From contig NC_133168.1 in NCBI RefSeq assembly GCF_040802235.1, positions 33,189,759-33,253,758 of the forward strand: DNA of 64,000 bases. Reading direction: 5' to 3'. How positions within the stretch are numbered: the first letter of the stretch is position 1; each line of letters opens with the position of its first letter. The notes below the pieces were generated by a model. That model had not been told where the DNA came from, made no database searches, and worked only from the letters and a program-made list of their open reading frames with translations. Positions 1-42,331 of the stretch are shown in pieces. The position numbers and the translations under genes are program-made. The DNA is from Manis javanica (lineage: Eukaryota; Chordata; Mammalia; Pholidota; Manidae).

Positions 1-1668
1 CTACTAGAACTGATATCGGAATACAGCAAAGTTGCAGGATACAAAATCAACACACAGAAATCTGTAGCTTTCCTATACACTAACAACGAATCAATAGAAA
101 GAGAAATCAGGAAAACAATTCCATTCACCATTGCATCAAAAAGAATAAAATACCTAGGAATAAACCTAACCAAGGAAGTGAAAGACTTATACTCTGAAAA
201 CTACAAGTCACTCTTAAGAGAAATTAAAGGGGACACTAATAAATGGAAACTCATCCCATGCTCATGGCTAGGAAGAATTAATATCATCAAAATGGCCATC
301 CTGCCGAAAGCAATATACAAATTTGATGCAATCCCTCTCAAATTACCAGCAGCATTCTTCAATGAATTGGAACAAATAATTCAAAAATTCATATGGAAAC
401 ACCAAAGACCCCGAATAGCCAAAGCAATCCTAAAAAAGAAGAATAAAGTAGGGGGGATCTCACTCCCCAACTTCAAGCTCTACTACAAAGCCATAGTAAT
501 CAAGACAATTTGGTACTGGCACAAGAACAGAGCCACAGACCAGTGGAACAGATTAGAGACCCCAGAAATTAACCCAAACATATATGGTCAATTAATATTT
601 GATAAAGGAGCCATGGACATACAATGGCAAAATGACAGTCTCTTCAACAGATGGTGCTGGCAAAACTGGACAGCTACATGTAGGAGAATGAAACTGGACC
701 ATTGTCTAACCCCATATACAAAGGTAAACTCAAAATGGATCAAAGACCTGAATGTAAGTCACGAAACCATTAAACTCTTGGAAAAAAACATAGGCAAAAA
801 CCTCTTAGATATAAACATGAGTGATCTCTTCTTGAACATATCTCCCCGGGCAAGGAAAACAACAGCAAAAATGAGCAAGTGGGACTACATTAAGCTGAAA
901 AGCTTCTGTACAGCGAAAGACACCATCAATAGAACAAAAAGGAACCCTACAGTATGGGAGAATATATTTGAAAATGACAGATCTGATAAAGGCTTGACGT
1001 CCAGAATATATAAAGAGCTCACACGCCTCAACAAACAAAAAACAAATAACCCAATTAAAAAATGGGCAGAGGAACTGAACAGACAGTTCTCCAAAAAAGA
1101 AATACAGATGGCCAAGAGACACATGAAAAGATGCTCCACATCGCTAATTATCAGAGAAATGCAAATTAAAACTACAATGAGGTATCACCTCACACCAGTA
1201 AGGATAGCTGCCATCCAAAAGACAAACAACAACAAATGTTGGCGAGGCTGTGGAGAAAGGGGAACCCTCCTACACTGCTGGTGGGAATGTAAATTAGTTC
1301 AACCATTGTGGAAAGCAGTATGGAGGTGCATCAAAATGCTCAAAACAGACCTACCATTTGACCCAGGAATTCCACTCCTAGGAATTTACCCTAAGAACGC
1401 AGCAATCAAGTTTGAGAAAGACAGATGCACTCCTATGTTTATCGCAGCACTATTTACAATAGCCAAGAATTGGAAGCAACCTAAATGTCCATCTGTAGAT
1501 GAATGGATAAAGAAGATGTGGTACATATACACAATGGAATACTACTCAGCCATAAGAAGTGGAAAAATCCAACCATTTGCAGCAACATGGATGGAGCTGG
1601 AGAGTATTATGCTCAGTGAAATAAGCCAAGCGGAGAAAGAGAAATACCAAATGATTTCACTCATCTGA
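1..1668 (+). CDS. L1 ORF2p, C-terminal 555 residues (partial)
   Basis: The reading frame is open from base 1 to the stop at 1666-1668, so the first in-window Met (178) is not a real start. It is the end of L1 ORF2, the endonuclease/reverse transcriptase that copies L1 RNA at a nicked target. The visible part follows the catalytic FADD motif and covers the RT thumb and C-terminal region. The cysteine-rich C-terminal motif (Cys-x3-Cys ... His-Cys-Trp-Trp-x-Cys) at about 1237-1290 is intact. The homologous minus-strand copy has a stop here. A few substitutions separate the two. With no break in 555 codons this is a young copy; whether the N-terminal half is intact cannot be seen. Confidence 0.9.
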
Positions 1669-2041
1669 GGAGTATAGGAACAAAGGAAAAACTGAAGGAA
1701 CAAAACAGCAGCAGAATTACAGAACCCAAAAATGGACTAACAGGTACCAAAGGGAAAGGAACTGGGGAGGATGGGTGGGCAGGGAGGGATAAGGGGGGGG
1801 AAGAAGAAGGAGGGTATTAAGATTAGCATGCATGGGGGGGAGGGAGAAAGGGGAGGGTGGGCTGCACAACACAGAGAGGACAAGTAGTGACTCTACCACA
1901 TTTTGCTAAGCTGATGGACAGTAACCGTAATGTGGTTGTTAGGGGGGACCTGATATAGGGGAGAGCATAGTAAACATAGTATTCTTCAGGTAAGTGTAGA
2001 TTAAAAATTTAAAAAAAAAAAAAGAAAGAAAGAAAGAAAAG
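1669..2041 (+). other. L1 3' UTR and first A-rich tract
   Basis: Follows the ORF2 stop. It contains the purine/G-rich segment typical of L1 3' UTRs (about 1760-1860, with several runs of G) and ends in an A-rich tract followed by GAAA repeats at about 2004-2041. In an ordinary L1 this tract would be the terminal poly(A). Here non-L1 sequence continues beyond it, which marks the start of the 3' extension. Confidence 0.8.
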
Positions 2042-3845
2042 GGGGATTACTCCTTAACAGGATAAAACTATTGGTAAATCAAAGATCAACGCATGCTTTA
2101 AATATCCTTAATGTTGATCACTTAAAGGGTGTCAGATGATCAGCTATGGAGGTACTCTTTTCTGATAATATTCCTTTCTCTTAATTAAAAAAAAAAAAAA
2201 AAAAAGCAGTTCCTGTGTGCTGACCTCCAATGAGTTCTGCACAGTGGTATAGAGGGCATGTCAAAGTGTGGGCAAAGGGTCTGTTTGTTTCTACGCAGAA
2301 GATCAAGGCCTAGCTTGGATACCCAGAAAATGAACTAAGATACGATATGAGGAGGAGCTTCCGGCATCAGCACTCTCTGGAGGACTCGTGCCGGGGGATG
2401 ATCATCAAAAAGCCTCCACAGGGATCCGGACGATGCTGCGGTTGTGGCTGCATCCAGCCCACCGTCTCCTGGACTTGCCATAAGAAGGAGGAGGGAGATG
2501 TCTAGGCTGGCATGTGCATACAGTGAGACAACGAATTTGACTGGATCTGTACTGTTGGAACTCAACCAGGAGTTGGGAGGGGTGCAAGTTGTAGCACCCC
2601 AAAATCTCATGACTATAGACTATCTATGGTTAAAAGAACATATGGGATGTGAACAGATCCCAGAAATGGGCTGCTTTAATTTGTCTGATGGTTCAAGTAC
2701 AGTTGGACAATATCCATCATATCATAGATAAATTTTCACAAATGCCTAGGGTGCCTAAATGGTTTTCTTGGCTTCACTGGAGATGGTTGGTAATTATAGA
2801 TTTGCTTTGTTTATGTCACCGTATTCCTATTATGTTAATATGTGTGTGCAAATTAGTTAGTAGTTTAAAACCTATACATACTTAAGGTACTATACAAGAA
2901 GATATGTCAAAGAAATAATCAATCCTCCCAAGTTTCCTTCATATGCTACATCTATAGCTTTTCTTCTTCCTTCCTAATTACAAACCTTAAATAGAATTCG
3001 TGCCTCATATCGAATTTACCGAGTATCATAATTCCTCCAGGTGGTAAAGATACCTAGAGACAAGTGCTGGGCATAGAAGCCACAGGGCATAAATCTGCAA
3101 AGAAGTAAAAAGCTAACCTTTGCAAACAATATGGCTTCTCTCTCACTTACCAACTTTACATTTCCCTGTATGGCCCCGGAAGATGACTGGTTAGCCAGAG
3201 ACGGGTAAGATTCCTCAAGGGAGGAACAACCTAAGACAGGCACAGTCGCAGGGGGGCCATCAGGTGAGAATTTGGGGGTCAACAGAGGTGAGGCTCAGAA
3301 CCTCACCCCCCATGCTTTGAGAGAAATCTTCTGCATCCGTGGATGTCTTGCTGCCCTTGTCTAGCCTGGATTAATACTTAGTCCATAGGCACACACCTGA
3401 TCATCTGATCATCTATATTTGCCTTCTTACAGCACTAAACTATGTTTTCTACCTTTATCTTGCATCTACCTACCACTTCAGCATTTTATTAAAAATAAAA
3501 ATAATAATAATAATAGGAGAAATGTGGGATCAACATATAAATCAAGTACAAAAATCAAATGAATATTCATATTTGACCTGATGGTTTATAGGTCATATTG
3601 CATGATCAAAACCGAAAGTTTCTGTGATGAATGCCCTTGTACTGTTCACCATGTAAGAATTTATTCACTCTGTAAGAATTCGTTCACCATGTAAGAACTT
3701 GTTCGTTATGCTTCAGAAGATTGGAGACTGACGAGAATTAGGCTTGAGATGGATTAATGATTGTACATTGAGCATTGACCCCCCTATACTGAATTTTATT
3801 GTTGTTAACAACCAGTTGATCAATAAATATGAGAGATGCCCTCTC
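2042..3845 (+). repeat. 3' transduced segment: env-TM relic plus LTR U3-R
   Basis: Non-L1 sequence between the first A-tract and the terminal poly(A) of the L1. A reading frame in 2444-2731 contains Cys-x7-Cys (2648-2674), resembling a retroviral TM CX6CC motif with the first Cys of the pair changed to Gly. An overlapping frame to 2885 holds a Trp-rich juxtamembrane stretch and a hydrophobic span with Cys residues. At 3515-3523 a purine tract abuts TGTGGG, as at a polypurine tract/LTR junction. About 320 bp later AATAAA (3822) precedes the poly(A). I read this as the 3' end of a degraded retrovirus read through by L1. The family is not identified, and the env call rests on motif shape. Confidence 0.6.
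3523..3845 (+). repeat. Probable LTR (U3-R) supplying the L1 poly(A) signal
   Basis: Begins TGTGGGATC directly after the purine tract AGGAGAAA, contains a short direct repeat of a GTAAGAA-type motif (about 3651-3700), and ends with AATAAA 18 bases before the poly(A). U5 is absent, as expected if the transcript was cleaved at the end of R. The same segment closes the minus-strand L1 at 18966-19289. Confidence 0.55.
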
Positions 3846-3961
3846 AAAAAAAAAAAAAAAAAAAAAAAGGAACAGGTTATGTTGGTGTTCCAAATTCACC
3901 TGACAAATGCTATTGCTTAGATTTTTGCTTCTAGCATTAATAAAAGAATAATTTCCGTGTC

Positions 3962-3998
3962 AAAAAAATAAATAAATAAATAAATAAATAAATAGATA
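3962..3998 (+). repeat. AAAT microsatellite
   Basis: Simple tandem repeat of AAAT, about nine units, at the end of a short AT-rich stretch that follows the L1 poly(A). It may be the decayed tail of an older retroposon covering about 3869-3998, which I could not identify. Confidence 0.8.
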
Positions 3999-4639
3999 AA
4001 AGCATTTAAAAAGACAACTTTATTGAAATAATTTTATTAAAAATTTTTTATGTTCATTAGCTATAATTTATATTTTGTCTTTTAATTTTTATAGAGGTTT
4101 TAGAGCATTGTATAAGAAAAATCCTTTTAAAATCATATTAAAATAATTCAGTGCTCTTAAACTAATTTTAACTTATTAAGATTAATCAGATTTTATGCAT
4201 ATAAAAAACCGTTTAGATGATTACTGTCAAAGAAAGACAAATTGCATGAAATTTTATTATAATTGGGGATTTTGCTGAAATGAAAGCAAGAAAAACAAAT
4301 TTTATAGAATAAATGTATAATAATTTATGAAGTAAAAAAAAAAAAAAAAAAAATATTCTGATTTTCACCTTGTTAGTCCAAATTGCTAAGATTTTTACAG
4401 TATTTCATCATTTTTAGGGAAAATGTTTTCAGTCAAGTTTTCTTTTTTTACTTAGACTGTAGACTATTTTCTTAAGTGGGAAAATGGTTGCTGAGTGTGC
4501 AAAATGAGTACAAAAGACTTTAGCAGGAAGACACTATGATCATTTGAAATTCTTCATCCCTGGAAAATTCTCCAATTAGGCTTATGAAGGCAATCCAATT
4601 TAGCAAACTGCTAATTGGAGAAAGCAAGAGCTTATTGGC

Positions 4640-6662: not shown

Positions 6663-9600
6663 AAACAATGGTTACTCATTGTATTATACAGCAGCAAGTA
6701 CTTGGCAGAAAATATTTGGGCCTCTCATGTGTTAAATGAATCTATAGTGTCATTTGTTGTGGACTTAACCATTGTCATTTCCATGAATTTTTGTCACAGA
6801 TAGAAGCTAAATATCCTAATTTTCATTACTACCCCACAGTTCTGAGGCTTAGCAGTAGTGAGGTTTTATTGCAATGTTTGAAGTTGGGCTTGAGACTGAA
6901 ATTTTTCTGAATAATAACTTACATTTATTGTTTTTGTTTATGAATTTATTAAGCAATCATTAATATTGAACAATGGTTTTGAAAATTAACTTCTACTGCA
7001 GACTTGATATTGCTTCTTAATGAATTCAATCTAAAATTAAAAGCCAAAACAGTGTTTACAGGCAAACTTATATCCTTTTAATGGTAACTAACATTGCTTG
7101 AATCACAAGTAATCCCAGGCTGCTTTACACTTTGCTTTCAAAAGTTAAAATGAGAAGTTAGATCTCCATTCCCACACTAATTTTAGTGGATATATTTTCA
7201 GAGCTTAAAGTATAGTTCCAACAACATTTTTGAACCTCCATGCAAGTATAAAGGAAATTACCATGTTTCAAAATCTATTTAATTTTAATTGAGGAGCTTC
7301 CACGTGATCTTCAATTGGAAGTGACTAATCTGCATTTTAATGCCATGCTTAAAAGGCAAATAGGAAGAGAATCTAAATAGAATTTTGAAACTATGTTCCA
7401 AACAATGAATATGCTCAATTAAAATTGTAGGCTTGTGGATTGATATCAGTATTTGGAAGTACCTGGCTGTGTGAAAAGATGAATACATGAAATTTCATTA
7501 CAGATCAGTATTAATTGAAGCTGAACATTTGCAATAGATTTTGACGAATGCTAGTGAAAACACTAACTTTGAGCTCCAATTAAGCTATTAAAATATTAGC
7601 CTCTCCCAAAAAAGAGTTCCATCCTTACCATTAGTAGGCCTCTGTTACAAAAAAATTGTACTCAGTTATTATTATTGTTGTTGTTCTATATTTTGGACAT
7701 GGTCAGTAAGAGTTTTATGGTAATTTGTATTCTCTCTTGTTGTCAAGTGTCTACATAAAATCCTCAGTTTAATATCTTTACCTACAAAGCCTACAATATT
7801 TACTGTCTAGTCCTTCACAGAAAATGTTTGCTGGCCTTGGATCTGGAGGATGTACACTGAAACAGTGACAGTGGTTTTCCCCGAGTAGGCAGATTATGAC
7901 TATTTTAATTTACTCTTTATTCTTGCTATTTGTATTTTCTCATTTATTAGCTATGAACATGTATTAACCATGTAATAAAGAAAATAAGCTATTAAAAATC
8001 ACTGAGAAATTTCTATTCATTTTTAAACGTTTGTCCGTAAGTCTAGGAAAAGATTGCCATCTTTCAACTTTACTGGTGAAAAACCTAGGTCAAAGTTTTG
8101 AAATATCAATGTTCTAATGAGGTATAACTGATGCCAGATTCTGTATTTTAATTTCATCATGGTTTAAGGGAGAAGGGATTGACATTCAGACTGGAAACTC
8201 TCACTCTAGATCCACTGCACAGTAAGCAAGAAGGCAGGCCTGTCAGCGCGTGCTGGCATCATGCCTGTTCCACTGTGAGAGAACAGCATCACTGCTAATT
8301 GAAACTGTAGAGGTGATTACCCAGGCTGAACCTTGAGAAGCAATATATATACCAACACTGGAGGGAAAAGGGCTATTTATTTGAAAAGTTCACCATCAAA
8401 TCACTGGACAGGATAAACAATTCATGAGGAAAATCAACACTTATTACAGTCATTGTAATTTGCTGATTTCTCTAGGCACTCTCAGTATGATGTTAAACTC
8501 CCTCAACCATCTTCTATTGGATAAGCAGCCATGATTGTGAAAAATCCATCACCTTTTTTTTCTTGATACCTCTTTCTACAGTTTTCAGAATTATATTTAA
8601 GCATGGTACAGACTGTATCTAATATTAGTAAGCACCCAATTTAGGATTAATTTCTCTGGAGGAACTAAGAGCCATATATGTATGTTAGTAATAACAACAC
8701 TGTGCAATTTGATCATTTATGAGCAGAATGATATATTTTTCATCTTAGGGAGTTCTGAGAGTTTGTATTCATTTTTGAAGCATCTGCAGCTTTCAGTACC
8801 AAGGCCACACAAATTTTCTGATCTTATTTTATTTAATGTCTCTACTGATTTGACTCTGATTAGAAGTTCAAATAATATAGTGATTCTTCTATGCCTTAAT
8901 TATGTGAAGGTATTTTTGTCTCTCTCCCAGCACAGCAGCAACTACAAATAAATTAACTGTTACACAGCTGTAACAGAGCACCTCTAGGTGGCTGTCTTTG
9001 AGGTGGCTATTATGCTAGGTTTCCAGATGGTTGAGATTTTTTTGCAATAGACTCAACCCCACTTCATAAATACATTTTCACAAGGGTACAGAAATCCAAC
9101 AGAGAATCACATATTTCCAAGTGCTCTCATGTGCACAACAGCTTTGATTTTGGGGGCATGTAAAATAAAATGGGTAAAAAAAAAAATGTTGCACATAGAG
9201 TAATTTTAATCCATTCCATTTTTAAATACCACAATAAATTTAATTTTCACAATAAATTAAATAGCCATATTCAGTTTACAAAATAGAATTACTTAGTGTG
9301 AAACCAGTATTTACAACAATATACATTATGTACACGACATTCTCTTTGTTGACACAGAACATGGAAGTAAAAGGACGACTTCCTAATGTGATTGACATGC
9401 TACCAGGGACACCACGGTCCATGTGAGAAAACGATAGTGCAAAATCACAACAGGAACTTTGGAACAGTGTCAGTTTTATGAGATAACATATTTTCTTAAA
9501 TAATAAGAAAATAGTATTTTCTGTTTTCATGACACCAATTCAGCATCTGAATTGAAGAGCCAGCTTGCCCTTAGAAAAGAATGCATACTGAATCCTTTAC

Positions 9601-9977: not shown

Positions 9978-10908
9978 TTAGGGCCAGTTCAATGTCCTCC
10001 CAGTGATCTGGTAAAATTTTTGATTAAAAGGGTGAAAGAATTTGCGCAATTTGGTAATGACAGAGGGGTCCACCTCTGGATGAATGCGCCCCTTGCTGCC
10101 TGCCAGGCACTTATTAAAGATAATGTTAAATCGCAAGCAGTAAAACCCTCTGGTAGCATTGAAATATAAATTGTATTGACTTATCCTTGGGGGAAGATTT
10201 AAGAACTTCTCCACGAGCTGAAGTTCTGGCAGAGGTTCCGTGATGAGGCGATCTCCATCGACAATGTGAAATTGTTCAATCGGAAAGTACTTTAACCATC
10301 TCTCCAGATGTTTGGTGTAGATACTGGTTCTTACTGCTTTGTATTTTGTGTTCACTTCACAGGTATTAGGGTCTATTGCCAGCTTCTCAAACTTATAGTA
10401 AGTTTTATTCTTCCTCTCCTTTCCCTCTAGCACCTGAGTGTAATCAGAAATAGCTCGTGTGGTGGGCTCCCTGACAATGATCAACAGCTTGACGGATGAG
10501 TTCATTTTGTAAATCCTTTCTGGAACCTCCTCCGTGATGAAATACGCTGGGCTCTTTTCAATTGTGATTTGCCGAGGGTAGGAAAAGGGCATCTTTTTCC
10601 TATACCACTCAGTGCCCTTGGCATAATTCTCATCGTTGTCAAAAAAGTGGATTTCTTGAGAGGCTTTGACCACTGCTGGATGGAGGTTCAGCATCTCAAG
10701 CAGAGCTCTTGTGCCTCCTTTCCTCACACCAATGATGATGGCCTTGGGGAGCTGTTGAACCAGGTCACGAAGGCGACCCTGCTCCTTGGATGTGTTGCCC
10801 TTCCGGAACTCATGCAGCAGGCCACGCTTAAACTGCAGGGCTCGAAGTGGGAATTCGGCCTGACTGCGGGCTCCGAATCGGCCTTCAATGGGGCAAATGG
10901 GTTGTAGC
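9978..10908 (-). CDS. HS3ST5: HS3ST5 terminal coding exon (sulfotransferase domain)
   Basis: Encodes residues 36-345 of heparan sulfate glucosamine 3-O-sulfotransferase 5, a Golgi enzyme that transfers sulfate from PAPS to the 3-OH of glucosamine in heparan sulfate. The family makes antithrombin-binding and herpesvirus gD-binding sites. Visible motifs in the full protein: 5'-phosphosulfate loop GVRKGGTR at 96-103, candidate catalytic Glu121 before HFFD, 3'-phosphate site Arg182...Ser190, and the Cys293/Cys303 disulfide pair. Sequons lie near 74, 172, 203 and 286. The acceptor is a pyrimidine-rich tract plus AG at 10910-10909. The phase completes codon Arg36, so the in-frame Met further upstream is intronic. 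The frame is intact to the stop. It is one residue shorter than the 346-residue human protein as I recall it, near the EGR motif. Confidence 0.97.
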
Positions 10909-13900
10909 CTAAAAGAAAAGAGAGACACTTTCAGAAGTTTATTGCAGCTAACTTTTCATTTTTCTGGTTCCCCTCTCAGACTGACACTAAATGCTTAAAT
11001 AAAACTACTGGTCCTAGCCCACTGCAAACCATAATGAGCACATGTTCGGGAAATTTTATTTTCAGCAACCCTGTCTAAAATGGAGCACACATAATTGATA
11101 GGATTTTTTTATTAGTGCTTCTTAAAATTTTATTCACCAAAAACTTAATTGACTATGGCATGTACTTATTATGTTCACAGTACAGGACAGACAAGTGACA
11201 CCAGCCATATTAATATCCTTTTAATGGCTCACCAGTTAACGTGAGCCATAACGGCTCATTTAGAAAACGTGAAAGGTGGATTATAATCTTAGCCAGGAGG
11301 CTGAAGGGCAGCTGGGAAGCTATGTCTTTTGGGTTTCGTGTAGTATATTTTCTTGCAGCTCAGCAGCACTCATAGAACTCTTAAAAATCTTTGAGGTATA
11401 ATCTGGAAAGAGGTCCCAGTCTCTGCCCTTGGCTGTTTGCATCATCAACCTGCAAAATCCAATCTTGGCATTTGCTGAGCTTTTCATTCTCTGAGAATTT
11501 CTGCTGTTGGCCTTGGGGACAACTAGAAAAGTGCTATATTTCTTCTGTCTCTCTTTCTCTTTCTATCTAAAGAGGTCAGGATTATGTTTTTACTTTGCAG
11601 GATGCAGAAACAAACCCACTGCTATCAGCAAGTGCTGTGTATCACCTACCACACCTGGGACCAGAAATCAACAAGATCTTGGCAGGGCTAGAAACTTCAG
11701 GTCCTCATTGCCAAGCCCATTTAAGTCAGGAACTTAGGCTCATGAAAGAAGAAATGCCAGGGATGGAGTCACTTCAATACTGCCCTAGATAGTAAACTAC
11801 CACCACTGCTTTTTTCAGAGAGAAAGGTGTGGGTGTGGTAACAATCCTGATGATATTAGATTGAAGTGACTATTCAATTTGGCATAGCCAATATATATGG
11901 TTAGTAAATTGCATTTACTTTTGGGTATACTCTGGAACTGAACTGAAATTCATTTTAATTTCCCTAAGTTTATCTAAGAGGGCATTTTAGCCCTCTTGTT
12001 AAAGGGTGTAATAATAGTTAAAATAGCTGTTAAATCAGTTCCTCCAACTGAAGCTTCTGGTTATCCTAAATAAATTAGAGTCTATGCCTTCTCTTTGGCA
12101 ATAAGGCCATATCTTGCTATTCTCAAGAGGTACTATTATACCTTTCCTATCTTCTGTAATGTTTATAATCAGAGGGAGAGGAGAGAATCCTCAAGGCCAG
12201 TCCAAGGCACTCTGCAGAGCAGAGGACAAAGGGGGTTGGCCTGTGCTCTGCTTAAACAGTAGCTATCATAATGCTTAATGGAAAATGTAAACATATTTTA
12301 TTTTTTGCAATATTTGTTTTTTGTGATTTAAAAAACTATTTATACTCATTGTAGATATGACAATATAGAATAGTATAAAAAGTAGTTCATCACAGTTAAT
12401 ATTTTAGAGAAACGTGAATTTTGTTTTTGTAAGTTTTGTTAACAGGATTAATATGCTAGAGCTCTAAACAGAAGTTATCAAAGTAGCAACACATACATAT
12501 TTTAACTGTGACATTGATAGGGATATCAGAAATTCATCTTTTAGCTCTTGGGTTCTGGTTGAGAGCAAGTGCTAATTTCCTAAGGAATCCCTTCAATGTA
12601 ATGGATACTACTTTTTCCCTATCCATTTAGAATGATCTAGAGACATCTTTGGGAGAATTGAGGAAATAGTCAATCAACTCCTTTTCCATAGGATTTAATT
12701 CTCTCACAGAACCCAGCGGGGAGTGGCAGAAGCAGTCTTGGCCCCATTAGAGCTGGAAAGGAATTCCCCACCTCTAGAAAGGGCCATTTTCCTTCTTTCC
12801 TTTCTTCCTCTTTCTACCTTCAGCTTTGGGAACTCACACCCTGCAGAACAACTGGGTTTTGGACTCCCTAACTCAAGATAGGAGAAAATATCACATTATT
12901 TCTACTTCCTGAAGAGTAGATTCTGAACATGGTTCACAGACTAAAAAATATGGACTCTTAAGATTGGAAGTGATACTAGAAGTAACTGAGCTCAGCCCCC
13001 CACTGAGAAGCAGCATCTTCAGTTATTGAAGGACAGGCCTAAGGAAGCATTTGTCAACTTGAGACAATTTTCTCAAATTCTCATGTGAGAGTTTTGAGAA
13101 AGTCCACTAAGCAATCTGATTCTTTATAAAAGCTATCCATTTAGAAACTAGGGACTGGATTAAAAATGAAAAGAATCATCAACTGAATAACTAATGTGCT
13201 AATGATTATAAAAATACTCAATAAAAAACAAATGATTGAAAGTTGATGAAAGCTATTGGGAATGAGTTGATATAAAAGTTCCATTTATGGACATAAGGAC
13301 AGTCGTACTGTCTCAAGGCTTTTCCCTGATAGCTAAGCACTGCTTTGGGGAATTACCTGAAGTCAGGGATAAACTGGATTATACATTTCCCATAGGTAGC
13401 AACTAGTAAGTGGGAAGTTTACTCAGGAATTTTGAATGGAAAAACATCAAAGGGATTCACTTTAGCCATAAAAACTGACACTCGCTGAAGGAAAATGAAG
13501 AACACTGCTATATTATTCATTAAATATCCAAGTGATGTGATTTTTAGATTATAAAAGAAAAACTGTAAGGACAATAATTTTATTTTAAAGTGTGGCTGCA
13601 TTTTCATAGAAAACAAGAATTTAATTCATGGAGAACATATTTCAGTCTTTCCAGCACAAGAATTAATTTTAAAGGACAAAGAAGGAAGCTTCTCAATTCA
13701 GAAATTCTCTAATCGCTCCAATCATACTGAGTATGGGACGGTGCAGAGGTGTTCAATGTAAAACTGGCTGCTATTGCTGGGACTTCTACAGGCCTAGAAT
13801 CTTTCAGCTGTTTGCTTATTTAAAGTCAAACTCTAGCTCTGTAAATTTCCTCTCCATGAATTTCCATTGCTTTCTGGGCAATTACTCTGAGTGACAGGCT

Positions 13901-18936: not shown

Positions 18937-18952
18937 TGTCCTCATGTTTTTT
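18937..18952. repeat. Target-site duplication, left copy (young L1)
   Basis: TGTCCTCATGTTTTTT, identical to 27709-27724. The terminal Ts merge with the L1 poly(T) run, so the exact right edge is uncertain by a few bases. Confidence 0.9.
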
Positions 18953-18965
18953 TTTTTTTTTTTTT

Positions 18966-20770
18966 GAGAGGGCATCTCTCATATTTATTGATCAAATGGT
19001 TGTTAACAACAATAAAATTCAGTATAGGGGGGTCAATGCCCAATGTACAATCATTAATCCATCTCAAGCCTAATTCTCGTCAGTCTCCAATCTTCTGAAG
19101 CATAACGAACAAGTTCTTACATGGTGAACGAATTCTTACAGAGTGAATAAATTCTTACATGGTGAACAGTACAAGGGCATTCATCACAGAAACTTTCGGT
19201 TTTGATCATGCAATATGACCTATAAACCATCAGGTCAAATATGAATATTCATTTGATTTTTGTACTTGATTTATATGTTGATCCCACATTTCTCCTATTA
19301 TTATTATTATTTTTATTTTTAATAAAATGCTGAAGTGGTAGGTAGATGCAAGATAAAGGTAGAAAACATAGTTTAGTGCTGTAAGAAAGCAAATGTAGAT
19401 GATCAGATGATCAGGTGTGTGCCTATGGACTAAGTATTAATCCAGGCTAGACAAGGGCAGCAAGACATCCACGGATGCAGAAGATTTCTCTCAAAGCAGG
19501 GGGGGTGAGGTTCTGAGCCTCACCTCTGTTGATCCCCAAATTCTCACCTGATGGCCCCCCTGCGACTGTGCCTGTCTTAGGTTGTTCCTCCCTTGAGGAA
19601 TCTTACCCGTCTCTGGCTAACCAGTCATCTTCCGGGGCCATACAGGGAAATGTAAAGTTGGTAAGTGAGAGAGAAGCCATATTGTTTGCAAAGGTTAGCT
19701 TTTTACTTCTTTGCAGATTTATGCCCTGTGGCTTCTATGCCCAGCACTTGTCTCTAGGTATCTTTACCACCTGGAGGAATTATGATACTCGGTAAATTCG
19801 ATATGAGGCACGAATTCTATTTAAGGTTTGTAATTAGGAAGGAAGAAGAAAAGCTATAGATGTAGCATATGAAGGAAACTTGGGAGGATTGATTATTTCT
19901 TTGACATATCTTCTTGTATAGTACCTTAAGTATGTATAGGTTTTAAACTACTAACTAATTTGCACACACATATTAACATAATAGGAATACGGTGACATAA
20001 ACAAAGCAAATCTATAATTACCAGCCATCTCCAGTGAAGCCAAGAAAACCATTTAGGCACCCTAGGCATTTGTGAAAATTTATCTATGATATGATGGATA
20101 TTTTCCAACTGTACTTGAACCATCAGTCAAATTAAAGCAGCCCATTTCTGGGATCTGTTCACATCCCATATGTTCTTTTAACCATAGATAGTCTATAGTC
20201 ATGAGATTTTGGGGTGCTACAACTTGCACCCCTCCCAACCCCTGGTTGAGTTCCAACAGTACAGATCCAGTCAAATTCGTTGTCTCACTGTATGCACATG
20301 CCAGCCTAGACATCTCCCTCCTCCTTCTTATGGCAAGTCCAGGAGACAGTGGGCTGGATGCAGCCACAACCGCAGCATCGTCCGGATCCCTGTGGAGGCT
20401 TTTTGATGATCATCCCCCGGCACGAGTCCTCCAGAGAGTGCTGATGCCGGAAGCTCCTCCTCATATCGTATCTTAGTTCATTTTCTGGGTATCCAAGCTA
20501 GGCCTTGATCTTCTGCGTAGAAACAAACAGACCCTTTGCCCACACTTTGACATGCCCTCTATACCACTGTGCAGAACTCATTGGAGGTCAGCACACAGGA
20601 ACTGCTTTTTTTTTTTTTTTTTTAATTAAGAGAAAGGAATATTATCAGAAAAGAGTACCTCCATAGCTGATCATCTGACACCCTTTAAGTGATCAACATT
20701 AAGGATATTTAAAGCATGCGTTGATCTTTGATTTACCAATAGTTTTATCCTGTTAAGGAGTAATCCCCCT
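18966..20770 (-). repeat. 3' transduced segment (second copy)
   Basis: Reverse complement of 2042-3845 with only scattered differences. It includes the same internal A-run (T-run at about 20607-20623), the env-TM-like frame (20080-20367 and 19926-20123 on minus), the purine tract/TGTGGG junction at about 19289, and the poly(A) signal at 18984-18989. Having the identical foreign segment behind two L1 copies means both came from one source lineage. Confidence 0.85.
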
Positions 20771-21143
20771 TTTCTTTCTTTCTTTCTTTTTCTATTTTTT
20801 TAAATTTTTAATCTACACTTACCTGAAGAATACTATGTTTACTATGCTCTCCCCTATATCAGGTCCCCCCTAACAACCACATTACGGTTACTGTCCATCA
20901 GCTTAGCAAAATGTGGTAGAGTCACTACTTGTCCTCTCTGTGTTGTGCAGCCCACCCTCCCCTTTCTCCCTCCCCCCCATGCATGCTAATCTTAATACCC
21001 CCCTTCTTCTTCCCCCCCCTTATCCCTCCCTGCCCACCCATCCTCCCCAGTTCCTTTCCCTTTGGTACCTGTTAGTCCATTTTTGGGTTCTGTAATTCTG
21101 CTGCTGTTTTGTTCCTTCAGTTTTTCCTTTGTTCCTATACTCC

Positions 21144-24100
21144 TCAGATGAGTGAAATCATTTGGTATTTCTCTTTCTCCGCTTGGCTTATTTCACTGAG
21201 CATAATACTCTCCAGCTCCATCCATGTTGCTGCAAATGGTTGGATTTTTCCACTTCTTATGGCTGAGTAGTATTCCATTGTGTATATGTACCACATCTTC
21301 TTTATCCATTCATCTACAGATGGACATTTAGGTTGCTTCCAATTCTTGGCTATTGTAAATAGTGCTGCGATAAACATAGGAGTGCATCTGTCTTTCTCAA
21401 ACTTGATTGCTGCGTTCTTAGGGTAAATTCCTAGGAGTGGAATTCCTGGGTCAAATGGTAGGTCTGTTTTGAGCATTTTGATGAACCTCCATACTGCTTT
21501 CCACAATGGTTGAACTAATTTACATTCTCACCAACAGTGTAGGAGGGTTCCCCTTTCTCCACAGCCTCGCCAACATTTGTTGTTGTTTGTCTTTTGGATG
21601 GCAGCTATCCTTACTGGTGTGAGGTGATACCTCATTGTAGTTTTAATTTGCATTTCTCTGATAATTAGCGATGTGGAGCATCTTTTCATGTGTCTCTTGG
21701 CCATCTGTATTTCTTTTTTGGAGAACTGTCTGTTCAGTTCCTCTGCCCATTTTTTAATTGGGTTATTTGTTTTTTGTTTGTTGAGGCGTGTGAGCTCTTT
21801 ATATATTCTGGACGTCAAGCCTTTATCAGATCTGTCATTTTCAAATATATTCTCCCATACTGTAGGGTTCCATTTTGTTCTATTGATGGTGTCTTTCGCT
21901 GTACAGAAGCTTTTCAGCTTAATGTAGTCCCACTTGCTCATTTTTGCTGTTGTTTTCCTTGCCCGGGGAGATATGTTCAAGAAGAGATCACTCATGTTTA
22001 TGTCTAAGAGGTTTTTGCCTATGTTTTTTTCCAAGAGTTTAATGGTTTCGTGACTTACATTCAGGTCTTTGATCCATTTTGAGTTTACCTTTGTATATGG
22101 GGTTAGACAATGGTCCAGTTTCATTCTCCTACATGTAGCTGTCCAGTTTTGCCAGCACCATCTGTTGAAGAGACTGTCATTTTGCCATTGTATGTCCATG
22201 GCTCCTTTATCAAATATTAATTGACCATATATGTTTGGGTTAATTTCTGGGGTCTCTAATCTGTTCCACTGGTCTGTGGCTCTGTTCTTGTGCCAGTACC
22301 AAATTGTCTTGATTACTATGGCTTTGTAGTAGAGCTTGAAGTTGGGGAGTGAGATCCCCCCTACTTTATTCTTCTTTTTTAGGATTGCTTTGGCTATTCG
22401 GGGTCTTTGGTGTTTCCATATGAATTTTTGAATTATTTGTTCCAATTCATTGAAGAATGTTGCTGGTAATTTGAGAGGGATTGCATCAAATTTGTATATT
22501 GCTTTCGGCAGGATGGCCATTTTGACGATATTAATTCTTCCTAGCCATGAGCATGGGATGAGTTTCCATTTATTAGTGTCCCCTTTAATTTCTCTTAAGA
22601 GTGACTTGTAGTTTTCAGAGTATAAGTCTTTCACTTCCTTGGTTAGGTTTATTCCTAGGTATTTTATTCTTTTTGATGCAATGGTGAATGGAATTGTTTT
22701 CCTGATTTCTCTTTCTATTGATTCGTTGTTAGTGTATAGGAAAGCTACAGATTTCTGTGTGTTGATTTTGTATCCTGCAACTTTGCTGTATTCCGATATC
22801 AGTTCTAGTAGTTTTGGAGTGGAGTCTTTAGGGTTTTTTATGTACAGTATCATATCATCTGCAAATAGTGACAGTTTAACTTCTTCTTTACCAATCTGGA
22901 TTCCTTGTATTTCTTTGTTTTGTCTGATTGCCGTGGCTAGGACCTCCAGTACTATGTTAAATAACAGTGGGGAGAGTGGGCATCCCTGTCTGGTTCCCGA
23001 TCTCAGTGGAAATGCTTTCAGCTTCTCGCTGTTCAGTATAATGCTGGCTGTGGGTTTATCATATATGGCCTTTATTATGTTGAGGTACTTGCCCTCTATT
23101 CCCATTTTGCTGAGAGTTTTTATCATGAATGGATGTTGAATTTTGTCAAATGCTTTTTCAGCATCTATGGAGATGATCATGTGGTTTTTGTCTTTCTTTT
23201 TGTTGATGTGGTGGATGATGTTGATGGATTTTCGAATGTTGTACCATCCTTGCATCCCTGGGATGAACCCCACTTGGTCATGGTGTATGATCCTTTTGAT
23301 ATACTGTTGAATTCTGTTTGCTAGTATTTTATTGAGTATTTTTGCATCTACATTCATCAGGGATATTGGTCTGTAATTTTCTTTTTTGGTGGGGTCTTTT
23401 CCTGGTTTTGGTATTAGGGTGATGTTGGCTTCATAGAATGAGTTTGGGAGTATTCCCTCTTCTTCTATTTTGTGGAACACTTTAAGGAGAATGGGTATTA
23501 TGTCTTCTCTGTGTGTCTGATAAAATTCCGAGGTAAATCCGTCCGGCCCCGGGGTTTTGTTCTTGGGTAGTTTTTTGATTACTGTTTCAATTTCTTTGCT
23601 TGTAATTGGTTTGTTTAACTTTTGTGTTTCTTCCTTGGTCAGTCTTGGGAGGTTGTATTTTTCTAGGAAGTTGTCCATTTCTTCTAGGTTTTCCAGCTTG
23701 TTGGCATATAGGTTTTCATAGTAGTCTTTAATAATTCTTTGTATTTCTGTGGAGTCTGTCGTGATTTTTCCATTCTCATTTCTGATTATGTTGATTTGTG
23801 TTGACTCTCTTTTTCTCTTAATAAGTTGGGCTAGAGGCTTATCTATTTTGTTTATTTTCTCAAAGAGCCAGCTCTTGGTTTCGTTGATTTTTGCTATTGT
23901 TTTATTCTTCTCAATTTTGTTTATTTCTTCTCTGATCTTTATTATGTCCCTCCTTCTGCTGACTTTAGGCCTCATTTGTTCTTCTTTTTCCAGTTTTAAT
24001 AATTGTGATGTTAGACTATTCATTTGGGATTGTTCTTCCTTCTTCAAGTGTGCCTGGATTGCTATATACTTTCCTCTTAAGACTGTTTTCGCTGCATCTC

Positions 24101-24986
24101 ACAGAAGTTGGGGCTTAGTGTTGTTGTTGTCATTTGTTTCTATATATTCCTTGATCTCTATTTTGATTTGTTCATTGATCCATTGATTATTTAGTAGCAT
24201 GTTGTTAAGCCTCCATGTGTTTGTGAGCCTTTTTGTTTTCTTTGTAGAATTTATTTCTACTTTCATACCTTTGTGGTCTGAAAAATTGGTTGGTAGAATT
24301 TCAATATTGTGGAATTTACTGAGGCTCTTTTTGTGAGCTAGTATGTGGTCTATTCTGGAGAATGTTCCATGTGCACTTGAGAAGAATGTATATCCTGTTG
24401 CTTTTGGATGTAGAGTTCTATAGATGTCTATTAGGTCCATCTGTTCTAGTGTGTTGTTCAGTGCCTGTGTGTCTTTACTTATTTTCTGCCCGGTGGATCT
24501 ATCCTTTGGGGTGAGTGGTGTGTTGATGTCTCCTAGAATGAATGCATTGCAGTCTATTTCCCTCTTTAGTTCTGTTAGTATTTGCTTCACATATGCTGGT
24601 GCTCCTGTATTGGGTGCATATATATTTAGAATGGTTATATCCTCTTGTTGGACTGAGCCCTTTATTATTATGTAGTGGCCTTCTTTATCTCTTCTTACTT
24701 TCTTTGTTTTGAAGTCTATTTTGTCTGATATTAGTACTGCAACCCCTGCTTTCTTCTCACTGTTATTTGCCTGAAATATGTTTTTCCATCCCTTGACTTT
24801 TAGTCTATGCTTATCTTTGGGTTTAAGGTGAGTTTCTTGTAAGCAGCATATAGATGGGTCTTGCTTTTTTATCCATTCTATTACTCTATGTCTTTTGATT
24901 GGTGCATTAAGTCCATTTACATTTAGGGTGACTATTGAAAGATATGTACTTATTGCCATTGCAGGCTTTAGATTCGTGGTTACCAA
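21144..24986 (-). pseudogene. L1 ORF2 (endonuclease-RT), two in-frame stops
   Basis: A single continuous 1280-codon frame, close to the usual L1 ORF2 length, broken only by TGA at 24101-24099 and TGA at 21530-21528. The N-terminal endonuclease domain shows the early Asn-Val-Asn, Gln-Glu-Thr-His, Leu-Gly-Asp-Ile-Asn and Ser-Asp-His motifs. The RT domain has FADD at 22865-22854. The C-terminal Cys-rich motif contains the second stop: HCWW in the plus copy, HCW then stop here. The first stop replaces the Trp of a Leu-Trp-Asp motif seen in the other L1s. Both are TGG to TGA. No frameshift is present. As it stands the frame cannot give full-length ORF2 protein. Confidence 0.92.
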
Positions 24987-25154
24987 AGGTTCAAGGTTAG
25001 CTTCTTTAGTATCTTACTGCCTAACTTAGCTCGCTTATTGAGCTGTTATATACACTGTCTGGAGATTCTTTTCTTCTCTCCCTTCTTATTCCTCCTCCTC
25101 CATTCTTCATATGTTGTGTGTTTTGTTCTGTGCTCTTTTTAGGGGTGCTCCCAT

Positions 25155-26078
25155 CTAGAGCAGTCCCTGTAGGATGCCCTGTAGAGGTGGTTTGTGGGAA
25201 GCAAATTCCCTCAGCTTTTGCTTGTCTGGGAATTGTTTGATCCCACCATCATATTTAAATGATAGTCGTGCTGGATACAGTATCCTTGGTTCAAGGCCCT
25301 TCTGTTTCATTGCATTAAGTATATCATGCCATTCTCTTCTGGCCTGTAGGGTTTCTGTTGAGAAGTCTGATGTTAGCCTGATTGGTTTTCCTTTATAGGT
25401 GACCTTTTTCTCTCTAGCTGCCTTTAAAACTCTTTCCTTGTCCTTGATCCTTGCCATTTTAATTATTATGTGTCTTGGTGTTGTCCTCCTTGGATCCTTT
25501 CTGTTGGGGGTTCTGTGTAATTCCATGGTCTGTTCGATTATTTCCTCCCCCAGTTTGGGGAAGTTTTCAGCAATTATTTCTTCAAAGACACTTTCTATCC
25601 CTTTTCCTCTTTCTTCCTCTTCTGGTATCCCTATAATACGAATGTTTTTCCTTTTGTATTGGTCACATATTTCTCTTAGTGTTGTTTCATTCCTGGAGAT
25701 CCTTTTATCTCTCTCTATGTCAGCTTCTATACGTTCCTGTTCTCTGGCTTCTATTCCTTCAATGGCCTCTTGCATCTTATCCATTCTGCTTATAAATCCT
25801 TCCAGGGATTGTTTCACTTCTGTGATCTCTTTCCTGACATCTGTGATCTCCTTCCGGACTTCATCCCACTGCTCTTGCATTTTTCTCTGCATCTCATCCC
25901 ACTGCTCTTGCATTTTTCTCTGCATCTCATCCCATTGCTCTTGCATTTTTCTCTGCATCTCTGTCAGCATGTTCATGATTTTTATTTTGAATTCTTTTTC
26001 AGGAGGACTAGTTAGGTCTGTCTCCTTCTCAGGTGTTGTCTCTGTGATCTTTGTCTGCCTGTAGTTTTGCCTTTTCAT
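25155..26078 (-). CDS. L1 ORF1p, intact, 307 residues
   Basis: RNA-binding chaperone of the L1 ribonucleoprotein. Order: short basic N-terminus, a coiled coil at about residues 31-125, an RRM-like region with RNIRIIGIPEEEER-type core at about 145-160, and a C-terminal domain with the ARREWHDIL motif at about 255-263. The coiled coil holds three exact 11-residue repeats at 41-73 followed by two heptads (74-87). The 286-residue ORF1 at 62159 lacks these repeats. The ATG at 26078 is followed by a frame without damage. It sits 168 bp upstream of ORF2 in the usual bicistronic layout. Confidence 0.93.
   Translation of the reverse strand: MKRQNYRQTKITETTPEKETDLTSPPEKEFKIKIMNMLTEMQRKMQEQWDEMQRKMQEQWDEMQRKMQEQWDEVRKEITDVRKEITEVKQSLEGFISRMDKMQEAIEGIEAREQERIEADIERDKRISRNETTLREICDQYKRKNIRIIGIPEEEERGKGIESVFEEIIAENFPKLGEEIIEQTMELHRTPNRKDPRRTTPRHIIIKMARIKDKERVLKAAREKKVTYKGKPIRLTSDFSTETLQARREWHDILNAMKQKGLEPRILYPARLSFKYDGGIKQFPDKQKLREFASHKPPLQGILQGLL
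25860..25958 (-). repeat. Three 33-bp repeats in ORF1 coiled coil
   Basis: Three tandem 33-bp units, nearly identical at the base level, each encoding MQRKMQEQWDE. They lie in frame within the coiled-coil region. Eleven residues is a hendecad, a spacing compatible with continued coiled-coil packing. Confidence 0.95.
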
Positions 26079-27708
26079 GGTGATAGAGATAGTTTGCAGA
26101 GCTGGTACAAGTGACCGCTGGAAGAGCTTCCCTTCTTGTTGGTTTGTAGCCTTTTCCTGGGAGAATAGCGACCTCTAGTGGCTTGTGCTGGGCAGCTGTG
26201 CGCAGACAGGGCTTCTGCTTCCCGCCCAGTTGCTTTGGGGTTTATCTCCGCTGTTGCTGTGGGCTTGGCCTGGCTGGGGCTGTTCCTCCAAAATGGTGGA
26301 GCCCCGTTGGAGGGCGAGCAGCCAGGAGACTATTTATCTCCGTAAGGGGCCTCTGTGCTCCCTGCTACCCAGGGGGTTAGAGTGCCCAGAGATCCCCAGA
26401 TTCCCTGCTTCTGGTCTAAGTGACCTGTCCTGCCCCTTTAAGATTTCCAAAAAGCACTCTCCAAACCAAAACAACAGCAGCAACAATGAGAGAGGGAACA
26501 GAAAGAAAGAGAAAAAAAAAGGAAAAAAAAGGAAAAAACAAGCGATTTTTTTTTTTTTTTTGTCCTCAGGTGCCGGTCCCAGGCACCCGCTCACTGGTCC
26601 TGCTGCCCTGTCTCCCTAGCACCAGGGTCCCTGTCCTTTCAAGGCTTCCAAAAAGCACCCTCCCACCGGTCCCGCAGGGAAGGAACGCTCAATATTCTTT
26701 GTCCTCAGGCACTGGTCCCACGCACCCGCTCACCAGTCCCGCCGCCCTGCCTCCCTAGCACCGGGGTCCCTGTCCCTTCAAGGCTTCCAAAAAGCACTCA
26801 GCAAAAAGAGAGAAAAAAAAGGGGAAAAACGCGCGATTTCTTCCGTCCTCAGGTGCTGGTCTCAGGCACCCACCCACCGGTCCCACAGGGAAAAATGCGG
26901 GATATTCTTTGTCCTCAGGTGCCGGTCCCAGGCACCCGCTCACCAGTCCCGCCGCCCTGCCTCCCTAGCACCGGGGTCCCTGTCCCTTTTAGGCTTCCAA
27001 AAGGCACTCGCAGAAAAGAGAAAAAAAAAAAGGGGAAAAACGCGCGATTTCCTCTGTCCTCAAGTGCCGGTCTCAGGCACCCGCCCACCGGTCCCGCAGG
27101 GAAAAACGGGGGATATTCTTTGTCCTCAGGCGCCGGTCCCAGCCACCCGCTCACCAGTCCCGCCACCGTGCCTCCCTAGCACTGGGGTCCCCGTCCCTTC
27201 AAGGCTTCCAAAAAGCGCTCGCCAAAAAGAGAAAAAAAAAAAAGGGGAAAAACGCGCGACCTCCTCCGTCCTCAGGCACCGGTCTCAGGCACCCGCCCCC
27301 AGGTCTCGCAGGGAGAAACGCGGGATATTCTTTGTCCTCCGGCGCCGTTCCCAGGCACCTCCTCACCGGTCCCGCCACCCTGCCTCCCCAGCAACGGGGG
27401 CCCGTCCCTCTAAGGCTTCCAAAAAGCGCTCGCCAAAAAAAAAAAAAAAAAAAAAACCGCTCCGGTTTCTCTCCACCCGCCGGGAGCCGGGGGGAGGGGC
27501 GCTCGGGTCCCGCCGGGCCGGGGCTTGTATCTTACCCCCTTCACAAGGCGCTGGGTTCTTGCAGGTGTGGATGTGGTCTGGATGTTGTCCTGTGTCCTGT
27601 GGTCTCTATTTTAGGAAGATTTTTCTTTGTTATATTTTCATAGCTCTATGTGTTTTTGGGAGGAGATTTCCACTGCTCTACTCACGCCGCCATCTTGGCT
27701 CCGCCCTC
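26079..27708 (-). promoter_or_regulatory. L1 5' UTR with monomer array and YY1-like site
   Basis: A 1630-bp GC- and CpG-rich leader of the young L1. At its 5' end is a CCAAGATGGCGGC site (27698-27686 on minus) matching the YY1 motif that positions L1 transcription start in other mammals. The middle (about 26562-27450) is a tandem array of ~211-bp units. Long frames on the opposite strand (for example 27064-27744) are products of this repetitive GC-rich DNA and are not called as genes. Confidence 0.85.
26562..27450 (-). repeat. Tandem ~211-bp monomers in L1 5' UTR
   Basis: The landmark ATTCTTTGTCCTC recurs with GTCCTC at 26701, 26911, 27122 and 27333, giving periods of 210, 211 and 211 bp. 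A further shortened unit begins at 26562 (139 bp before the next). Each full unit contains a GC-rich GGTCCCGC block, a CTTCCAAAAAG block and an A/G-rich tract. Confidence 0.9.
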
Positions 27709-41147: not shown

Positions 41148-42300
41148 TCAATAACAAATTATAAAAGCCCTCAAGCCTGAGGAGATCCATTGCTGTGAAG
41201 TGGTCATCTTGGCTGTATTCAAACTAGTTCTACTCAGATGAGTTAACCAAAGGGACCATGGGTATGCCTTCTGATACCTGTCTTCTCCAGCCTCTTTAAG
41301 AGAAAGTCTTCCAGACACACAGGCTGATCTTGTTGCTTTGTCTCTGGTTTCTGCTTCATCCTCAGCAGCTGGAACCACTGCTCCAGTCTCAATTGTTGCC
41401 ACAGCTCCAGTAATAATCTGTTTGACTTTTCATCCAATTTCTCTCTGTCTTCTCCTGCCTTTATCTGATCACCCACATCTGGGTCCTTATGACCTTCACA
41501 GTGCCCTTTATATGCTCCCTTCAAGTAGAAGACCATATTTCCTTTTGTGCTTTCATTGCTTGAACCTAAGGATAGAAGCAGAGCATCGAGTGCTCCACCA
41601 CCTTGGGAGGGGGTTGCATCTCTCCTGGTGGAGCTTGTAGGTGCTGAGTCTTTATTTCCTTTCAGGGTTTCCATCGGATTTCAAATAGGTGGAGTTTCAA
41701 CCGAGGAGGGGCTGATGCCTCCAGCACTGGCAGGGCCTCCACCCCCGTGTGTTTGTCAAACCTCAGCTCTTCCTTCATTTCTGGGGCTGACTGGACCACT
41801 GCATCCTTCACCTGCCCATGGTACCTGGCAGCCTGCAATCTCAGGCTGCTTCCTCTCAGGCTACCATTACACACATCCTTTACCATTTCCACAGCACCTT
41901 GTAGTGACACCTTCAGTCATCAGCGAATTTTTTACCCCCATCAACGGCACATTGCAGCTCATATTCTCATGATGCCTCTTCTCATGCTTCCTGCAGGAGG
42001 ACATCCTTCTCCCTGACAACCTTTCTCAGCACTATGAGACAAAAAAAAAAAAAACACCCCACAGTTTCCTCAGCCACATAGGCACTTTATTTCTGTAAGG
42101 AATTCCCTATTTTTCTGAGCACCAATTTTACTGCCTCTGGTATTGCCTCCACATCTTCCCAGTCTTGCAATAGAGCTCAGTCCTCTAGGAGGCAAACCAC
42201 ATCAGACCACATGTCCATTGGGGGATACTCGAATGTCTCCCCATGCATAGGCGCAGCCCACTGAAATACTCCTCCCATGAGAGCAGCCTGTTCTTTTCCT
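41148..42300 (-). pseudogene. gag remnant of deleted provirus 1
   Basis: Broken frames (41910-41662, 41674-41243, 41402-41148) related to gag of the neighbouring plus-strand ERV-L-like element. Shared segments include the KxxxDP..TQM and VATTE.. regions. Several stops and shifts. Its N-terminal part is not matched in the plus-strand element, whose gag start is missing. Confidence 0.6.
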
Positions 42301-42331
42301 TGGTCAACAATGAATACTGCCTTTTGCCAAT

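Follow-up and report, generated by a model that had tools for sequence, protein, structure and literature searches.

Why should two young LINE-1 (L1) elements at a single locus both run on, past their own A-tracts, into the same non-L1 sequence? The question is raised by a 64,000-nucleotide stretch of the Manis javanica genome (G000:C13:33189759–33253758; hereafter the window, meaning the whole stretch), which we followed up by searching the 2.56-Gb genome. An original prediction, made from the letters of the window, held that an L1 had landed upstream of the 3′ end of a provirus and now terminates in its long terminal repeat (LTR), creating a hybrid family of L1 and endogenous retrovirus (ERV). 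We consider it very probable that an ancient L1 3′ transduction of a provirus 3′ end was fixed as a hybrid family. The anatomy of the elements, their retroviral homology, a poly(A) at the R/U5 boundary, enclosing target-site duplications, the copy number, the coexistence of old and young copies, uneven rates of change on the lineage against an even-decay control, and ongoing serial transductions were all observed directly.

The window contains two full-length L1 elements, one on each strand, and the predicted common 3′ extension of ~1.8 kb is present in both at 99% identity. By self-comparison, positions 1–2045 are complementary to 20767–22811 at 99%, and 2188–3864 are likewise complementary to 18947–20623 at 99%. 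The plus copy begins upstream of the window (L011:206; G000:C13:33184905) and continues through 2042–3845, with the open reading frames ORF1 and ORF2 of a full L1 upstream of the extension. Its L1 part within the window (1–2005) comprises the ORF2 C-terminus (1–1668) and the L1 3′ untranslated region (UTR; 1669–2005), followed at 2006–2041 by the L1's own A-tract with (GAAA)n, which is the point of fusion between L1 and retrovirus. The minus copy occupies 18966–27708, with the extension at 20768–18966 and the LTR U3-R portion at 19288–18966, and the 16-bp target-site duplication AAAAAACATGAGGACA (5′ copy at 27724–27709, 3′ copy at 18952–18937) encloses the L1 together with its extension, as had been claimed. 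When the best 40 of 2026 candidate genome matches to the segment were scored, and the plus copy itself was set aside, 39 of 39 were 99–100% identical over the whole or nearly the whole segment; a chance co-occurrence of the segment with L1 is thereby excluded.

A search with the pattern of the LTR end returned two classes of sequence, one in which R runs into poly(A) and one in which it runs into a U5, GCACCACTCT. A pair of U5-type ends separated by 5.7 kb marked a defective provirus, L036, with two LTRs that are 88% alike and GACCTA at both outer edges. Its primer-binding site is TGGTGCCTGAACAGGGA, which we take to be Lys3-like. The interior holds gag, pol, and pieces of the surface (SU) and transmembrane (TM) envelope subunits, with matches to Gag_p10 (7.5e-11) and to the reverse-transcriptase thumb (1.6e-13). 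The integrase piece matches solved integrase structures at 1.1e-42, the best of which are presumably those of mouse mammary tumor virus, and matches IN_DBD_C only weakly (E 0.0006, below the Pfam cut-off). The TM piece, better preserved than that of the extension, matches the TM of avian sarcoma/leukosis virus (ASLV) at 2.7e-11. The extension is collinear with the reverse complement of L036 (rc3605–3741, rc3755–3957, then, after a gap, rc4939–6320 to the end of R), and the L1 poly(A) coincides exactly with the R/U5 boundary of the LTR. These matches indicate that the extension derives from the 3′ end of a betaretrovirus-like provirus. A parental provirus with matching env and both LTRs had been anticipated, and L036 represents this kind of source, with two LTRs, a primer-binding site, and gag, pol, SU, and TM pieces; L036 and the R|U5 LTR ends counted below are the source kind free of L1, not the founding locus itself. 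Excerpts from published sources are cited here by PMC number; one of them describes pangolin ERVs of which some carry a gamma-type env and one has an L1 inserted between env and the 3′ LTR (PMC12584738).

Alignment to L036 allowed each part of the extension to be assigned. The first part (2042–2186) is a relic of the end of pol, from the integrase C-terminal region, and is 80% identical over 137 nt to rc3605–3741. A second A-tract (2187–2206) follows, and the pieces on either side of it are nearly contiguous in the provirus, so this tract is internal; 2042–2186 is thus retroviral as well, with retroviral DNA on both sides of the tract, which goes beyond the original prediction. By the same comparison, 2207–2422 is a relic of the integrase DNA-binding domain that ends where the env leader and SU, a block of ~0.9 kb lying between rc3755–3957 and rc4939–6320, are absent. 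This block is missing in all copies that reach the point (16 young loci, both window copies, L016, L017, and L047). It is flanked in L036 by a possible GT...AG, and its loss by splicing is possible. The TM relic (2423–2882) has a broken frame and retains a fusion-peptide region, a CX7C motif (2648–2674), a Trp-rich stretch, and a membrane span to 2882. Its 80-residue frame at 2489–2728 matches the ASLV TM fusion subunit (4jpr, E=1.3e-6; 5h9c, E=1.5e-6), and a Pfam search of two extension frames returned no family. The predicted TM relic is therefore present, and the CX6CC-like motif ascribed to it is in fact C-x7-C (GCEQIPEMGC), with Gly in place of the first Cys of the canonical CC. A non-coding spacer from env to the polypurine tract (2901–3500) is followed by a polypurine-tract-like stretch (3501–3522), whose provirus counterpart at the equivalent place is GGGGGAAA. 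The LTR starts with TGTGGG at 3523, immediately 3′ of AGGAGAAA, in agreement with the predicted purine tract abutting the LTR. Its U3-R portion (3523–3845) carries AATAAA at 3822–3827 and stops at the R/U5 boundary, with a poly(A) at 3846–3868; the end 18 nt past the signal had been correctly noted.

The first base of the extension adjoins the A-rich AAAATAAAAAGGGGG in L036, and A-rich stretches of this type suit the L1 endonuclease. The predicted capture of a proviral 3′ end is supported; its predicted position is not, since L1 and retrovirus are fused within the provirus, at the C-terminus of integrase. The junction is identical in the old copies L016 and L017 and in the intermediate copy L055, and an L1 that lacks the extension (reverse complement of L016, 7723–8054) has its poly(A) end at the position of the fusion point. 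At the junction of one further copy (L056, C1:24286576–24287270) there is a large (GAAA)n/(GGAA)n expansion. A U3-R stretch was also seen inside an old L1 (L018, C1:103914000–103923999, reverse complement ~6704–7018), running from LTR start to R end with no U5, poly(A), or hybrid L1. It had prompted the notion of an LTR with no U5, which was dropped when U5 ends were found.

The size of the family was estimated from genome-wide counts of patterns of 29 to 38 nt with up to 3 mismatches, each with a reversed-pattern control that gave 0. The R end followed by poly(A) occurs at 27,085 places and the R|U5 end at 417, a ratio of ~65, the two counts being only roughly comparable because the patterns are of unequal length; some of the 417 are clustered on C2 and C16 and resemble local duplications. 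The first 38 nt of the extension were found at 8,525 places and the young ORF2 end at 28,595. Among 100 exact ORF2 ends on C1:1–55.24 Mb, 63 have an exact extension start 390–407 bp downstream. Seven of the remaining 37 were fetched and 7/7 carry a mutated extension, the other 30 lying outside the sample. In each of the 16 young loci retrieved at 9.9 kb, the extension is joined to the L1 3′ UTR. Nine L1-type loci chosen by their R end, in which the LTR is present by construction, contain the spacer in 9/9 cases and reach the env relic in 8/9. The hybrid is a large heritable family that includes old copies, and the extension is present in every young L1 resolved; the genome counts and the linkage in young L1s (63 exact, 7 mutated) bear out the predicted hybrid L1/ERV family. 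Over the initial 18.8 Mb of C1, exact R ends number 100 and exact extension starts 32. If mutated starts are allowed for (63/100 linked copies keep the exact start), roughly one half to two thirds of these insertions would lack L1 sequence altogether and would be annotated as LTR/ERV fragments.

The possibility that the segment belongs to the 3′ UTR of all L1s in this genome was ruled out by older L1s that lack it, namely two in the window, with their ends near 34568 and 58886, and the L1 at L016 rc7723–8054, which has a homologous 3′ UTR, a poly(A) end, and no extension. Since homologous and older L1s without the extension exist, the capture happened inside this L1 lineage. The old L1s L016 and L017 also carry the extension. 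Of the seven regions compared between them, six diverge by 8.4–10.5% and one, designated seg1 (107 nt), by 15%; other old pairs scatter more. If neutral change proceeds at about 2.2e-9 per site per year, the decay of these two copies would place the capture at roughly 20 million years ago or more.

The way in which the copies end was examined through target-site duplications, which could be read in 15 of 18 copies (all but L020, L023, and L029). In 8 of the 15 (L021, L022, L024, L025, L026, L030, L034, and the minus copy) the duplication follows directly after the LTR poly(A). In the other seven it lies beyond: only ~11 nt of non-A sequence intervene in L027, and ~95–470 nt in L028, L031, L032, L033, L035, and the plus copy. 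The LTR poly(A) signal is thus used, and is leaky. Transduction has been reported in 10–23% of L1 overall (PMC12593883); six or seven of 15 exceeds this range, but our sample consists of best-matching copies and is not random. In 5/5 young copies checked, the L1's own end has ATTAAA directly 5′ of the A-tract (window 2000–2005); in L016 and L017, the final 340 nt of the 3′ UTR contain neither this hexamer nor AATAAA.

The plus copy illustrates the leakage. The original prediction ended the feature at 3868, and the plus copy reaches further: 3869–4334 is also transduced, and an 18-bp duplication AAAATATTCTGATTTTCA, read by eye, lies at L011:188–205 and at window 4350–4367. The piece at 3869–3961, also found in the L1 copies L032 and L033, derives from a ~1.69-kb tandem-array unit on contigs C37 and C47 (L037, C47:161700–163700). 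This 93-bp flank, transduced by a sub-lineage of the hybrid L1, lies inside the array, so one of the satellite units was probably the site of a source L1. The private flank at 3986–4334 has one mismatch in 349 nt to C4:14558928–14559276, and the assembly has no L1 there (empty site L038, C4:14558700–14559700). The progenitor of the plus copy was therefore probably in a C4 allele missing from the assembly, a polymorphic or lost source, which would imply recent activity. The family as a whole has the features expected of L1 3′ transduction, that is, non-L1 DNA past the A-tract with a second poly(A), enclosing duplications, and L1-free DNA of the source type. In a separate copy (L023, C14:90118440–90128340) the L1 body is ~5% diverged from the young lineage, and roughly the final 100 bp of its 3′ UTR, along with the extension, are nearly identical to it; this recombinant with mismatched divergence indicates that L1 3′ ends have been exchanged between sublineages.

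What the captured sequence does for the L1 was approached through rates of change. Five young copies were compared with 9 old L1-type copies in a polarized analysis that excluded CpG sites; the copies came from lists of good matches and are not a random sample, and the old set did not include L046 (5′-truncated), L040 (recent), the ERV-type L048–L050, or L036. The sites of the polypurine stretch (0 changes/23; 2/160 singletons) were left out of the tests. Changes fixed in the young lineage were found at 47/423 sites of the pol/env relic (11.1%), 20/537 of the spacer (3.7%; Fisher versus relic, p=1.0e-5), and 13/282 of the LTR (4.6%; p=0.0023). Singleton decay in the 9 dead copies was even across relic, spacer, and LTR (77/3141, 96/4698, and 62/2435, or 2.45%, 2.04%, and 2.55%; spacer versus relic, p=0.24), which rules out mutability as the cause of the rate gap. 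Triplet estimates with L016 and L017 gave, for the young branch, 3.1% in ORF2, 4.6% in the spacer, 6.7% in the LTR, 8.5% in seg1, 10.4% in the L1 3′ UTR, 11.0% in env, and 17.4% in the region seg2_5; the retroviral non-coding part is nearer in rate to ORF2 than the L1's own 3′ UTR is. The regional slowness of spacer and LTR is supported by these data, and the retroviral non-coding part is apparently under selection on the L1. A hidden coding frame in the spacer was considered and rejected: a short frame opens with ATG at 3131, and provirus L036 has no such start codon there (by eye). Among the non-CpG changes fixed in the young lineage, A>G and T>C exceed the reverse by 39 to 14, opposite to the usual drift toward AT.

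The slow spacer contains, at 3184–3250, a predicted hairpin in which AAGACA (3233–3238) forms an internal loop between GCC/GGC and GGGU/ACCU stems. It is a candidate half-site of an NXF1-binding transport element such as the constitutive transport element (CTE) of type-D retroviruses. AAGACA is intact in 18/18 aligned sequences, five of which are nearly identical young copies. Lindtner (2002), cited in PMC3045867 and PMC10982106, reportedly described an NXF1-binding element in the human L1 3′ UTR, and human LINE-1 RNA is described as likely exported via an NXF1 motif in its 3′ UTR (PMC10982106). In the CTE, one Tap-p15 is bound by each of the symmetric units, whose internal loop has a conserved AAGACA (PMC4330393), and mutation of AAGACA weakens a gammaretroviral CTE (PMC4174252). 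Mason-Pfizer monkey virus (MPMV) combines a CTE with a gamma-like env, and another betaretrovirus gained an export element along with its env-adjacent region (PMC11379458). We propose that the captured spacer may act like a CTE, which its place and its loop would fit, with one unit only. The broader suggestion is that this L1 lineage exchanged its own RNA 3′-end and export signals for retroviral ones, an LTR poly(A) site and a CTE-like NXF1 half-site, and that the capture accounts for the long dominance of the lineage in this mammal. This would amount to a cis-regulatory transfer from a retrovirus to a LINE; it is a tentative and on balance doubtful proposal, drawn from sequence comparison.

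A number of results weigh against the overall account, capture and export role included. The founding locus, an L1 within the provirus, was not found in this analysis, and the duplication lies past the LTR poly(A) in 7/15 copies. AAGACA occurs once in 2042–3845 and the two-fold symmetric pair of loops is absent; because there is only one unit, the hairpin was not classified as a CTE. The loop is closed in the minimum-energy fold of only 12 of the 18 copies, and the fold z-scores against shuffles (−1.55 and −1.77) are not exceptional. Rfam gave no match at the gathering threshold and seven weak ones, none of them to an export element, and the strict hairpin pattern had 0 matches in viral contigs. 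A comparable gammaretroviral element with a single loop did little in one to three copies, and four or more were needed (PMC4174252), which weakens the export reading. Spacer and LTR change at similar rates (p=0.31, CpG sites kept). The longest run free of changes (3123–3270, 130 evaluated sites) was matched in 51/5000 shuffles over the whole extension and in 574/5000 within spacer and LTR alone, so a peak of constraint on the hairpin, above its surroundings, is not supported by the shuffle test.

The slow spacer may instead have been kept for a reason other than export, such as poly(A) efficiency, RNA stability, splice silencing, or packaging by the ORF1 protein. The similar constraint over spacer and LTR (3.7% and 4.6%), with the hairpin not significantly more constrained than its surroundings, favors such a reason; the position between env and the polypurine tract, the combination of a betaretroviral gag-pol with an ASLV-like TM, and the looped AAGACA speak for the type-D CTE arrangement (PMC4330393, PMC4174252, PMC11379458). 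We give this alternative not quite an even chance.

It is also conceivable that the capture was real and the retroviral segment is neutral baggage that only gives the L1 RNA an end, the founder having carried it by chance. One L1 lineage tends to dominate in any case, and the CTE features are incomplete. Transductions are, moreover, common by-products of L1 at the 10–23% given above (PMC12593883). Under such neutrality it is difficult to see why, on one and the same branch, spacer and LTR acquired fewer changes than either the pol/env relic or the L1's own 3′ UTR when dead copies decay evenly, or why the segment is retained in all 70 young L1s resolved (exact in 63 and mutated in 7, the other 30 of the 100 being outside the sample). 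We consider neutral carriage unlikely.

A different route to the same structure would be template switching, in which the L1 reverse transcriptase started at the poly(A) of a (partly spliced) ERV RNA and jumped to the tail of an L1 RNA, so that no L1 ever sat within a provirus. The possible GT...AG that bounds the missing block in L036, as in a spliced RNA, and the recombining 3′ ends seen in L023 would suit this route. The fusion point falls in the A-rich AAAATAAAAAGGGGG of L036, which is suited to the L1 endonuclease, and the L1 A-tail is joined to it directly, as in an ordinary insertion; template switching is accordingly judged quite improbable. Two successive transductions split at the second A-tract (2187–2206), to which the division of 2042–2186 from the remainder and the order of L019 (L1, seg1, A-tract, another L1) might point, are extremely improbable and were ruled out by the near-contiguity of the pieces in the provirus, since the aligned pieces are only 13 bp apart in L036, L016 and L017 hold both, and insertion of an L1 into the A-tract would account for L019 just as well.

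We therefore return to the transduction of a provirus 3′ end, and the inference that an L1 came to terminate in a retroviral LTR is supported by provirus L036, the R/U5 poly(A), and the size of the family. In the proposed sequence of events, an L1 would have come to lie within an endogenous, betaretrovirus-like provirus, in the sense direction and at the C-terminus of integrase. Transcription presumably read through the weak L1 end into the provirus, the env leader and SU may have been lost by splicing or deletion, and the hybrid RNA would have been polyadenylated at the R end of the 3′ LTR. Retrotransposition of this RNA could then have founded the young L1 lineage of the genome, with new copies usually ending at the captured LTR and sometimes leaking beyond it. 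Selection on the L1 would keep the spacer and the LTR U3-R while the pol and env relics drift. The LTR would supply the poly(A) site, and the spacer most likely a nuclear-export signal of the NXF1/CTE kind or an RNA-stability signal.

Several other features of these elements and of the window were noted. The 5′ UTR of the minus copy contains four tandem units of ~211 nt (26603–27446), and the ORF1 coiled-coil repeat MQRKMQEQWDE is present in three units in the minus copy (25861–25961) and two in the plus copy (L011:1950–2020). Another copy (L029, C14:18406214–18416114) lacks ~1.07 kb of the 5′ UTR between GAAGGGG|GTAAG and GGAG|AGTGC, as though this part had been spliced out ahead of insertion (SpIRE-like). 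At 9978–10955 on the minus strand there is an open frame of 325 residues with a sulfotransferase domain (Sulfotransfer_1, 8.9e-32), which is probably an exon of a heparan sulfate 3-O-sulfotransferase. Frames at 42265–46315 (e.g., 43712–44086, by eye) read like another old retroviral gag/pol that is unrelated to the extension; a Pfam search of two of them (42265–42822 and 43036–43560) gave nothing above the cut-off.

L1 3′ transductions are usually viewed as by-products. Here one of them became a lasting and apparently functional module of an autonomous L1, so that L1 can gain RNA-processing signals from retroviruses, and the hybrid family has also multiplied a retroviral 3′ end. The question raised is whether an export signal decides the success of an L1 lineage. 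No description of an autonomous L1 family with an ERV 3′ end was found in the parts of the open-licence literature covered by the search, which is weak evidence of novelty. The process resembles the 3′ transductions of human L1 families in its read-through past the L1's own poly(A) site and in the duplications that enclose the downstream DNA, and the plus copy repeats it in series, first with a satellite unit and then with the C4 flank. It differs in that the 3′ end of a provirus became a lasting part of the lineage, with ~27,000 end signatures and a slowly evolving non-coding part. The SINE-R portion of SVA is similar in that its 3′ end consists of the 3′ part of a retroviral env and a 3′ LTR ending in poly(A) (PMC12593883). 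SVA is mobilized by the L1 machinery (PMC7353768) and is a non-autonomous composite, whereas the present module is carried by an autonomous L1, comes from a different retrovirus, and includes a pol relic and an env-to-LTR spacer. The SVA components themselves (SINE-R from HERV-K10 env/LTR, a variable number of tandem repeats, and an Alu-like region) are not what is seen here, where a full L1 lies upstream, and this description sets the hybrid apart from SVA. With the type-D CTE of MPMV and simian retroviruses the spacer shares its location in the non-coding region between env and the polypurine tract of a betaretrovirus with a non-beta TM, and a stem-loop with an AAGACA internal loop; the candidate has one AAGACA unit versus two, lies in the 3′ UTR of an L1, and is put forward from sequence. 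The RNA transport element of SERV-K/MER11 was also gained by recombination with an env-adjacent non-coding region (PMC11379458), a gain from virus to virus, whereas here it would be from virus to LINE. Finally, human L1 RNA would likewise be exported through an NXF1 signal in its 3′ UTR, which in that case is the L1's own and here would have been captured from a retrovirus.

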